From: a virus
Reading direction: 5' to 3' (one strand)
Length of the DNA stretch: 35,845 nt
Virus record (IMG/VR): IMGVR_UViG_3300039309_000013
Coordinates: 1-35,845 of that record
Shown here: piece by piece, positions 13,023 through 16,387 of the stretch
How the letters are laid out: each line of letters starts with the position of its first letter
Position numbering within the stretch: the first letter of the stretch is position 1
Notes under the pieces: generated by a model
What the model saw: only the letters and a program-made list of their open reading frames with translations
Databases searched by the model: none
What the model was told of the DNA's origin: nothing
Position numbers and translations under genes: made by a program

Positions 13023-14963
13023 TTACCACTCTCCCACTGAAAATGCGTTGCTCATGCAGCGACCTTTGTTTGGGTCTGTTTTCTTCTTGCTTGGCGTATT
13101 ATAACGCTTTTGCGAACGTGCGGATAGATCATCGTAGGTATGCATATTTAGGTAACTCTGTGCTGCCGCTCGTATCCTGTCGTCATGCTTGTTCTTTTGG
13201 TGCGTCATAACGTCTCTTCCACCATCTTTCGTATGCCGCTCAAGAGTCTTCAACTCCTCTATCAGCCACTTAGAGTAAGGAACGTACCAACCACCGTTTA
13301 TTGCCTCAACAAAACGGTCCATTAGGATAGGAACAGTTACCTTGTTAGAATACCATCCTTCTCGATGCTTGTTTTCGTCCTTGACCTTCTTTCCGTCAAG
13401 CCTTCCGGGGGTATGATGCCAGTTGAAACCCATAATCTTTAATTGGTTCTGGCAGGTATCTCCCGGTCCTTCCACCTGTTCGATTGAGAACTTCACTCCC
13501 CTATAATGACCTGAAACCTGTCCGTACCACGTCGCCATAGCTGCTAGGAATGGAACCGCTTGCGCGGGGCTAAACCTGAGAGATGTAAGCTCCGCCGATT
13601 GAAAGTCGCATCCTGATCCGCTTGAAACCCTTGTCATGGATGCGCAGAATCTATCCTCATCCTCGTGACCCAAACCGTGCGCCGTGTCCACTCCGCAACT
13701 GTATTGTGCTCCTCTTTGCGGAGGCTCATAAACAAGAAGCCTGTCGAACGTATAACTTTCAGTTTCCTCGTCTATTGGAAGCAAAGGCACGAGTTCCCAA
13801 TCGTATCGCTCATCTCGATTTGATTTATGAGTTAAGTGAATGACTTCTTTGCTGTAGTCTATTTGAGATTCACTTGGCTCGAACTCTTCAAGAATGGAGT
13901 GTCCTGTAATCGCGTAGGCTTGGAATGGTTCTTTGCGAACCTTTTTCCCATCGGTACTAATCTCGTAAATATCATCTTCTAACTCCATAATCGTCTCTTG
14001 GTCGAAAACGCTATCGTGGACTCCTGTCAGAGCTTCAAAGTCGTCGGCAGGTAGACGTGCGGCGTGCTGCTGGAGAGAATGTCTTTCCTTTGCTTGAGCG
14101 TACTCAATTTCCCACCAATACTGCTGTTCGATTGGAACACGATAATCGGAACCTACAACTTTGGAAAGATATGGAGTATTCCTAATGTACGATTCGCATC
14201 GTGTTATATGAGCCTTCGTTGCGTCTAGGCGTCTCTCATAGAATCCTGCCGGGACAGGGTGCTGCCTCATCCAATCAGCTTCAGGATAAAGATCGGTTGC
14301 TAGAGGCCACGATAGGAATATAGGGCACATTCTTCCTGTATTTAGAGGCCACTTTTCTTTCTGCGATCTCCAGAAATCAGCAAACCATCCAACGTTTCCC
14401 GATCCTGTACTTTCAAATACCATAAACAAGTTTTTCGTCGGGTGAGTAGCTGGTAACAATCCTTCCTCAATAGTGTTGTGAGGATTAGGGATAAGAGAAA
14501 GCTCCGAGATGTGGATTAAGGTAGGACTCTTTCCTTGTGCAATACCTTTAGGCTGCATACCGGATTCAATGTTAAGACGTGATCCGTTTGCAAATCCTCT
14601 CTTTGGAGTCCTTGGCGGAATCAACCAAAACGGACACATATCGTAGGCTGTATTTAACTTTACCTCAATCTCCTCTGACTTTTCCTTTTGCACGGACGCC
14701 ATGACAGCCAAGACGTTAGGTACAAAAAGCATCCTATGCATAAAGTACAAAGCAACTAAGCTAGTAATGCCAATTTGACGGGCCTTCAGGCAGAGCACCT
14801 GTATACCTGCCTGTTTCTCTTCTAGTTCGGCCACAATTGAGTCGAATACATCTTGCGATCTACGATTCTTGAACTTCTTAATCTGTCCACCTTCGTCAAC
14901 ACAATAAGCATAATTATCACGCCAGTATCCATAATCGAGGCTGCAAAGAACTTGCTCATTCAA
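13023..14963 (-). CDS. terL: Terminase large subunit (ATPase/nuclease), start unclear
   Basis: Motor and nuclease that packages DNA into the head through the portal. From the formal TTG start at 14963: Walker A-like KARQIGITS at residues 60-68, Walker B LIHISE at 149-154, the coupling motif FESTGSG near 183-189, and a RuvC-like nuclease beginning YSCGVDTAHG (Asp 426) with further acidic residues near KHDDRIRAA. The segment before the TTG, back to 15182, is also clearly coding in the same frame (SEVLEFTAYIKSITTLASN, then LTDKRRAEIRRWI before NEQVLCSLDYGYW) and matches the N-terminal part expected in this terminase type. It contains no ATG, GTG or TTG. The real start is therefore a rare codon near 15173 or a +1 frameshift from the upstream gene. 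Confidence 0.9.
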   Translation of the reverse strand: MNEQVLCSLDYGYWRDNYAYCVDEGGQIKKFKNRRSQDVFDSIVAELEEKQAGIQVLCLKARQIGITSLVALYFMHRMLFVPNVLAVMASVQKEKSEEIEVKLNTAYDMCPFWLIPPRTPKRGFANGSRLNIESGMQPKGIAQGKSPTLIHISELSLIPNPHNTIEEGLLPATHPTKNLFMVFESTGSGNVGWFADFWRSQKEKWPLNTGRMCPIFLSWPLATDLYPEADWMRQHPVPAGFYERRLDATKAHITRCESYIRNTPYLSKVVGSDYRVPIEQQYWWEIEYAQAKERHSLQQHAARLPADDFEALTGVHDSVFDQETIMELEDDIYEISTDGKKVRKEPFQAYAITGHSILEEFEPSESQIDYSKEVIHLTHKSNRDERYDWELVPLLPIDEETESYTFDRLLVYEPPQRGAQYSCGVDTAHGLGHEDEDRFCASMTRVSSGSGCDFQSAELTSLRFSPAQAVPFLAAMATWYGQVSGHYRGVKFSIEQVEGPGDTCQNQLKIMGFNWHHTPGRLDGKKVKDENKHREGWYSNKVTVPILMDRFVEAINGGWYVPYSKWLIEELKTLERHTKDGGRDVMTHQKNKHDDRIRAAAQSYLNMHTYDDLSARSQKRYNTPSKKKTDPNKGRCMSNAFSVGEW

Positions 14964-15177
14964 TATCCAACGCCGTATCTCCGCCCGCCTTTTGTCGGTG
15001 AGGGGAGCTACTTTGTCAATCCATGCTCCTTTGGAGTTGCTTGCCAGGGTGGTTATAGACTTTATGTAAGCAGTAAATTCTAAGACTTCTGAAAATGAAT
15101 GCCTTACAGGTTCCCAGCCGTTTTGCGCGGCAAAGAAGTTTATATTAGATTCGATAATGCGCGTCGAGTAGATGGTT

Positions 15178-15423
15178 TTACCTCATCATGGTTTGCTTGG
15201 ATCGTGGAACCCATTCCGGTATTACACTCAATATCTTTTTCATGTAAGCATGGTTTTCTTCGTCTAAGCATTCAATCAGATCATCTCTCGAATCAAATAC
15301 CTGCCTGCCATCGAACGAAAGAAAAGATGCTTGTAATGTGTCGTAGAATGAAAACTCTCGCGGCCAATCAGGATCATTTTCATCCTGAGCAATTTGTTTT
15401 CCTAAATCAATAAAGCGAATCAA
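15178..15423 (-). CDS. Small protein upstream of terminase, 81 aa
   Basis: The start is a TTG at 15423 with GGAGGGCTAG immediately before it; the previous gene's TAG touches the TTG. Sequence MIRFIDLGKQIAQDENDPDW, then FSFYDTLQASFLSFDGRQVF, resembles a short acidic protein often placed next to terL. It ends QTMMR with ATGATGAGGTAA, where GATGAGGT forms the only good binding site for the terminase frame. A +1 shift on AGG-TAA would fuse it to the terminase. Confidence 0.65.
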   Translation of the reverse strand: MIRFIDLGKQIAQDENDPDWPREFSFYDTLQASFLSFDGRQVFDSRDDLIECLDEENHAYMKKILSVIPEWVPRSKQTMMR

Positions 15424-16071
15424 CTAGCCCTCCAATAGTCTTTGTCGTATTGGTACGAGTTTATCTTGAATCTCGTTAGGAGGAGGGAAAAGATCATCGA
15501 AATCGTTATTGGTTGTATATTCCGCATCGACTGTCTTCCCGTCGTCCTCATCCTTAGCCTTACCCTGCCCACCACCACGGAATACCGCTACCTGCTGCGT
15601 TCCAATGAATGTCGGTCCCTTCGGAGATTGCATGACTCCTAGCGCAATATCTAATGCGGTCCTGTCCTTCTCCCCTCCAGCCATCTTCGCATATTTTACT
15701 CTTGATTTCGTTACGTCGGGATGGTTGGATACGGCAATAAACCTGCTCCTATTCCAGCAGTGGGTCTGCACAGCCAACTGGATTGCTCCTAGAAGATGCT
15801 TTATATTCACCTTTGCGGCTATGGACATCGCTTCCCATGATAAACATTCCCTGTCGCCTATAGGAACCTTATCGTAAACCTTCAAGAATGCCCTAATCTC
15901 TGTATCATCCGTCGCAAAACGCATCGCGTCAAGAGCAGCCTTTAAGCCACCCTTGACGGTCGTTTTCAACATCGGAGTGAGTGGGGGAGCCGCTATGAGA
16001 GATTCAGGCTTTACTTTTAGTCTTTTTAGGGCTTGCAGTGTCCGGCTTTCCAATGGCTTCGGAACCGGCAT
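15424..16071 (-). CDS. Probable terminase small subunit / DNA-binding protein
   Basis: 215 residues from the ATG at 16071 (AAGGAAG about 12 bases upstream; weak). A longer frame exists, but its first 80 codons lie over the 16004-16387 gene and have the low-complexity look of a shadow frame. Residues in the middle (LSWEAMSIAAKVNIKHLLGA) look like a helix-turn-helix, followed by SRVKYAKMAGGEKDRTALDI and an acidic C-terminus (DEDDGKTVDAEYTTNNDFDD). A DNA-binding protein just upstream of terL fits the small subunit that recognises the packaging site. Inference from position and HTH only. Confidence 0.6.
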   Translation of the reverse strand: MPVPKPLESRTLQALKRLKVKPESLIAAPPLTPMLKTTVKGGLKAALDAMRFATDDTEIRAFLKVYDKVPIGDRECLSWEAMSIAAKVNIKHLLGAIQLAVQTHCWNRSRFIAVSNHPDVTKSRVKYAKMAGGEKDRTALDIALGVMQSPKGPTFIGTQQVAVFRGGGQGKAKDEDDGKTVDAEYTTNNDFDDLFPPPNEIQDKLVPIRQRLLEG

Positions 16072-16387
16072 CAGGCTTTTTGGCTTCCTTGTTTTCTTTG
16101 GGATGATCTCGCAACCATTGGGCTGTTCGTTCTCCAATATAGGATTCGGATTCGGGGTCTCCAATATCGAGCCATTCGTTGATTGAGATTGACTCGTCTG
16201 CGAGTCCAAGGTTTTTCTTTGCTCTATCCTCTTCGGTTTCGACTCTCGTGAGGACGGACTCTCTTTGCTGTCCTGGTTCCGGCCAATACCGTTTTCCTGC
16301 TCGCTTTGCCTCTTCATGCAGACCCTCTAAAGACTTTGCAATCAACTCCCATGCTACCACAAGACGGTCGTTTTGCTCTTTGGTCAT
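16004..16387 (-). CDS. Unknown phage protein, 127 aa
   Basis: Begins MTKEQNDRLVVAWELIAKSL, then RAGKRYWPEPGQQRESVLTR and SINEWLDIGDPESESYIGER; ends in a Lys/Pro-rich tail. The ATG at 16387 overlaps the upstream stop (ATGA) and has AAGGG seven bases before. It overlaps the next gene by 68 bases. The protein looks genuinely coding with a helical, acidic body; function unknown. Confidence 0.65.
   Translation of the reverse strand: MTKEQNDRLVVAWELIAKSLEGLHEEAKRAGKRYWPEPGQQRESVLTRVETEEDRAKKNLGLADESISINEWLDIGDPESESYIGERTAQWLRDHPKENKEAKKPDAGSEAIGKPDTASPKKTKSKA

Follow-up and report, generated by a model that had tools for sequence, protein, structure and literature searches.

Evidence that a family of uncultured phages conserves a rare ATC start codon on the large terminase gene

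INTRODUCTION

Start codons of the AUN type other than AUG are already known in bacteria. The infC gene starts with AUU, AUC or AUA and the pcnB gene with AUU (PMC5472188, PMC13009471); in Streptomyces, infC starts with ATC (PMC5472188), and in S. aureus it starts with AUA and has an extended Shine-Dalgarno (SD) sequence (PMC13009471). In Streptomyces, sigR has a GTC start, the replacement of which by a canonical codon causes over-production of the protein, and its repression by IF3 was shown experimentally (PMC5472188). All three genes are held at a low level, and several of them are responsive to IF3 (PMC5472188, PMC13009471), which disfavors initiation with a third-position mismatch (PMC10158994, PMC5472188). 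The closest published phage case that we found is terS of Streptococcus phage TP-J34, for which an AUU start was re-sequenced by its authors (PMC3952083); we checked the DNA of this start and found AUU, in the context AAGGAGGTggatgtATT. In a search of the open-access literature, with most subscription papers falling outside it, we found no large terminase described as starting with AUC. As a start codon, AUC is normally poor, and it mismatches the initiator anticodon at the third position.

In this study, we analyzed the large terminase gene (terL) in a stretch of viral DNA of 35,845 nucleotides (IMG/VR record IMGVR_UViG_3300039309_000013, positions 1 to 35,845; hereafter, the window), together with its relatives. 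On comparative sequence evidence, uncultured phages of one family conserve an ATC start of this gene. The gene resembles infC and pcnB in that it is an essential or dosage-sensitive gene with a non-AUG AUN start and a good SD sequence, although infC and pcnB are cellular, and no counterpart of the autoregulation of infC by IF3 is seen here, as 11 phage records of this group lack an IF3_C match. TP-J34 terS likewise serves phage packaging and combines an AUN start with a strong SD sequence; however, it encodes the small subunit, uses AUU instead of AUC and belongs to an unrelated phage. The non-canonical start of sigR, which sits in a translationally coupled operon, is GTC rather than ATC and precedes a cellular regulator. 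Among isolated phages, Tunturiibacter phage Tunturi_1 has a TerL that is homologous over 97% of its length and starts at the same residue, but its start codon is GTG, the identity is 27% and the phage is ~63 kb long, whereas the longest relatives of the window are contigs of 134–138 kb.

RESULTS

Open reading frame and annotation of terL

The features to which we refer below are as follows (window coordinates).

13023..15173, minus strand: terL, 716 codons counted from ATC, with the stop codon at 13025-13023; assigned by PHROG matches and full-length relatives
14961..14963, minus strand: formal TTG start, the choice of a standard gene caller; an internal Leu codon, rejected as the true start
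14964..15170, minus strand: TerL codons 2–70, left out by a gene call from TTG 14963; every full-length relative conserves this region
15171..15173, minus strand: inferred terL start codon ATC, with which canonical start codons of relatives are aligned
15180..15187, minus strand: SD sequence GATGAGGT, with GAGG separated from ATC by 7 nt; overlaps the last codons of the upstream ORF
15178..15423, minus strand: 81-aa ORF ending in ATGATGAGGTAA; its C-terminal end carries the terL SD sequence
15424..16317, minus strand: conserved protein of 297 aa, next upstream

The terL frame on the minus strand is open from 15182 to the stop codon at 13025-13023, and an in-frame TGA directly precedes it (15185-15183). 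The first ATG, GTG or TTG in this frame is the TTG at 14963-14961; as the original prediction had stated, none is found in the preceding 73 codons. The prediction had also described an upstream ORF ending in ATGATGAGGTAA, a ribosome binding site in GATGAGGT and an ATC seven bases past GAGG, all of which proved exact. This ATC (15173-15171) is in frame with terL and lies 4 nt from the stop codon of the 81-aa ORF.

The protein matched the PHROG profiles for the terminase large subunit (phrog_5989, E = 2e-13; phrog_2, E = 9e-13) and was 73–96% identical to IMG/VR relatives over its full length, while a Pfam search gave no match at E = 0.1. An AlphaFold model built from an 11-row alignment was of low confidence (mean pLDDT 38) and was set aside. 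Neither the 81-aa ORF nor the 297-aa protein matched PHROG or Pfam; that the latter is the small terminase would be a guess from its position.

Start positions in relatives

A scan of IMG/VR with the translated terL frame detected 22 relatives, most of which matched from query residue 1–4, and later scans, besides returning these records, added three at 51% across the N-terminus and another at 31%. When the DNA of about 20 relatives was aligned, homology reached the ATC codon at 15173-15171 (minus strand) and did not extend beyond it. The aligned start codon was ATG in L002, L020, L011 and L104-106, GTG in L009, L012 and Tunturi_1, and TTG in L013, L015 and L016. In the window, L003/L004, L005, L006/L007/L008/L022 and L010, the aligned codon was ATC; this set comprises the window and contigs of eight other metagenomes, amounting to five distinct sequences, and ATT or ATA never appeared at this site. 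The pairwise alignment with TerL of Tunturi_1 began at residue 1 of both proteins. Because homology ends at ATC and the canonical starts are aligned there, this codon appears to occupy the start-codon position.

The original prediction had proposed a plausible terminase N-terminus upstream of the TTG, which homology upholds; the conserved N-terminus opens at ATC with IYSTRIIESN, well ahead of the LTDKRR that had been quoted. Homologues start at the codon equivalent to ATC, and the TTG with its NEQVL is internal to a conserved stretch (RWILNEQVL). We rejected TTG 14963 as the true start, as it encodes an internal Leu of this stretch and has no well-spaced SD sequence.

Among the ATC members (window, L003–L008, L010 and L022), no ATG, GTG or TTG lies between the preceding in-frame stop codon and ATC. 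Downstream of ATC, the next canonical codon is codon 70 in the window, 21 in L003 and L010, 10 in L005 and 22 in L006, with SD sequences that are mostly weak or mis-spaced. Since these codons are found at differing places, there is no alternative start common to all ATC members.

Conservation of the ATC codon and of the sequence following it

We compared the ATC column with 23 other columns in which Ile is present in all five distinct ATC sequences. The codon was uniform in only one of these 23, as ATT, and ATC was the least used Ile codon (55/230). A codon that is ATC in five of five sequences at the start, against a uniform codon in 1/23 elsewhere, does not behave like an internal Ile. From this comparison, ATC is judged to be conserved as DNA, beyond what is ordinary for Ile.

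Between relatives, codons 2–70 showed pN/pS values of 0.21–0.35, with differences concentrated at third positions. These values and the third-position excess argue that the stretch is translated in the terL frame, and by this measure it is under purifying selection, in further agreement with the N-terminus that had been predicted.

Strength of SD sequences

SD strength was computed as the duplex energy with the 16S rRNA tail ACCUCCUUA, and four spacing windows were tried. The pairing energies of the ATC members were –7.0 (window), –7.7 (L006), –10.2 (L005), –11.7 (L010) and –13.6 kcal/mol (L003), whereas those of seven canonical members ranged from –1.1 to –6.4 kcal/mol. The two groups did not overlap in any of the four spacing windows; the one-sided chance of a complete separation of 5 and 7 is 1/792 if kinship is ignored, and the 12 sequences of this contrast are not independent of each other. 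Both sister pairs, window/L002 and L010/L011, displayed the same direction, the ATC member having the stronger SD sequence. Relative to the genes of these phages in general, the SD sequence of the window (–7.0) is average, and those of L003 and L010 rank among the top 2%. The stronger SD sequences of ATC members agree with the pattern in S. aureus, in which non-canonical starts are accompanied by extended SD sequences (PMC13009471). RNA structure and accessibility at the start displayed no shared pattern and nothing that separated ATC from canonical members.

History of the start region

Changes between the ATC and canonical states, counted as a minimum, numbered three on the tree built from residue 101 onward and two on that of the first 100 residues, that is, at least 2–3. 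In the gene body, the window is 98% identical to L002. Over positions 14870-15500 of the window, identity to L002 is about 55–75% from –320 to +100, a patch of about 400 bp spanning the start, and 90–100% further out on both sides, and the start region, consisting of the 81-aa ORF and the TerL N-terminus, was probably exchanged by recombination. Because of recombination around the start, the number of ATC origins is blurred. The 81-aa ORF is present in some relatives, with a conserved C-terminus that overlaps the terL SD sequence, and absent in L015, in which terL follows directly on the next gene upstream.

Phage-wide screens

Across 97 conserved families from the window and 16 related contigs or loci, only TerL had a convincing ATC, ATT, ATA or CTG start; this screen was coarse, since the automatic search misplaced some start columns, including that of TerL. 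The called starts in ATC-bearing contigs were 144 ATG, 20 GTG and 13 TTG.

The IF3_C profile, used to look for a phage-encoded IF3, matched none of 11 related phage records, and no tRNA region was found in the ATC contigs searched. The tRNA-Met and tRNA-Ile(GAU) of G010 and G005 were considered as candidate phage initiator tRNAs and rejected, as they have neither the three anticodon-stem G-C pairs nor the C1xA72 mismatch that mark initiators. With no IF3 in the phage records searched, and with none of the tRNAs examined being initiator-like, AUC is likely read by the ordinary initiator tRNA of the host.

The 134–138 kb relatives (L062/L063, which are G010; L073, which is G005; and L080/L081, which are G006) carry about 26–30 tRNA genes each, and G005 also has a tmRNA. 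ARAGORN reported a UAA-reading anticodon (TTA) in G006 and a UGA-reading one (TCA) in both G006 and G010; these could be stop suppressors or miscalls. No prophage relatives were found in genome contigs, and plasmids gave weak partial matches alone.

In L018 (IMGVR_UViG_3300014501_000174), terL is interrupted in frame at positions 130-972 by ~280 residues beside Walker A (..VLC / CLKGRQVG..). The insert begins with CLDPDTKVLT, ends with VSHN-C and resembles an intein. A further, more remote match, L018:2868-3530, lies immediately downstream of the intact gene; it shows 36% identity to terminase residues 461–698, contains an internal stop and is perhaps a decayed paralogue of the TerL C-terminal part.

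DISCUSSION

Alternative explanations of the ATC codon

The original prediction had offered two explanations, a rare start codon and a programmed +1 frameshift on AGG-TAA that would join the 81-aa protein to TerL. The former is favored by the homologous start position, by ATC in five of five sequences and by the strong SD sequence. The frameshift draws on the window, where a +1 slip at the end of the 81-aa ORF would lead into the terL frame. However, eight sequences have gaps of 4, 4, 12, 11, 3, 15, 3 and 0 nt from the upstream stop to the terL start; the phase is thus not conserved, and a fusion of the two proteins is excluded for the family. Moreover, in L006 and its near-identical contigs L007, L008 and L022 the frame is closed by a TAG two codons ahead of ATC, L002 shares the phase of the window and has an ordinary ATG start, L015 has no 81-aa ORF to be fused, and the fused homologues that the prediction suggested looking for were absent, with a fused frame in none of the full-length relatives. 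We regard the frameshift as refuted. A sequencing or assembly error, in which the true base gives ATG or an insertion or deletion conceals an ordinary start, might be suspected because the window is one metagenomic contig and its nearest relatives, L002 and L020, have ATG. However, ATC recurs in contigs of eight other metagenomes with different flanking sequence, which makes a base-calling error very unlikely, and the many substitutions between the window and L002 over –320 to +100 point to a different allele and not to a single miscalled base.

That the ATC versions start at the next ATG, GTG or TTG downstream and yield a shortened terminase is what standard gene calling returns, and the ATPase Walker A region, which lies further downstream, would survive. 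This seems improbable, if somewhat less so than an error, given that the candidate codons are mostly at different places (10, 21, 22 and 70) and mostly poorly served by SD sequences, while the N-terminal 70 codons are still under purifying selection and a good SD sequence is retained at ATC. A further explanation accepts ATC as the start and rivals only the throttling part of our interpretation: the codon would have no regulatory meaning and would reflect near-neutral drift, buffered by a strong SD sequence and by coupling with the gene upstream. The alternation of ATG, GTG, TTG and ATC within the family, the success of relatives with canonical codons and the swapping of the region by recombination are in keeping with drift, but ATC is fixed as nucleotides across diverged members and is never ATT or ATA, the stronger SD sequences that accompany it suggest compensation or tuning, and drift of this kind was seen in none of the other conserved genes of these contigs. 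We consider drift possible but not probable.

Proposed mode of TerL initiation

The rare ATC start of terL is strongly supported by these comparisons. We therein favor, with considerable confidence, the explanation that TerL translation begins at AUC 15173-15171 (minus strand), positioned by the SD sequence, with a low, IF3-sensitive yield as the most likely consequence. In this mechanism, the SD sequence, located in the last codons of the 81-aa gene at a spacing of 6–8 nt, would position the 30S subunit, and ribosomes finishing the 81-aa gene would also be positioned at AUC by termination-reinitiation. The initiator tRNA would be accepted on AUC despite the third-position mismatch, and a protein of 716 residues starting with fMet-YSTRIIESN... 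would be produced. The outcome would be a low, IF3-sensitive production of an enzyme that carries a nuclease and is needed in few copies per capsid. The comparisons show where the start lies, that it is conserved as ATC and that its SD sequence is stronger, and we infer AUC use in vivo, a lowered yield, and the action of IF3 and coupling on it; low IF3-sensitive initiation aided by a strong SD sequence and upstream ribosomes is the likeliest reading, and the phages may thereby throttle TerL production. It is also conceivable, although unlikely, that AUC acts together with the strengthened SD sequence and the coupling to the 81-aa gene as a conserved translational switch, by which the packaging motor is held at a low level until conditions for initiation in the host shift late in infection. 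If this were true, packaging would be timed by the state of the host translation apparatus, such as IF3 per ribosome and free 30S subunits.

Implications

For an essential phage gene, an ATC start has here been located by comparative data alone. Automatic annotation trims 10–70 residues off TerL, a major marker protein of phages, in such cases. Relatives that alternate between canonical codons and ATC, with SD strengths that vary along with the codon, constitute a natural series for the study of IF3 discrimination and SD compensation. Taken with TP-J34 terS, the terL start raises the question of whether packaging genes are a favored site of such throttles.
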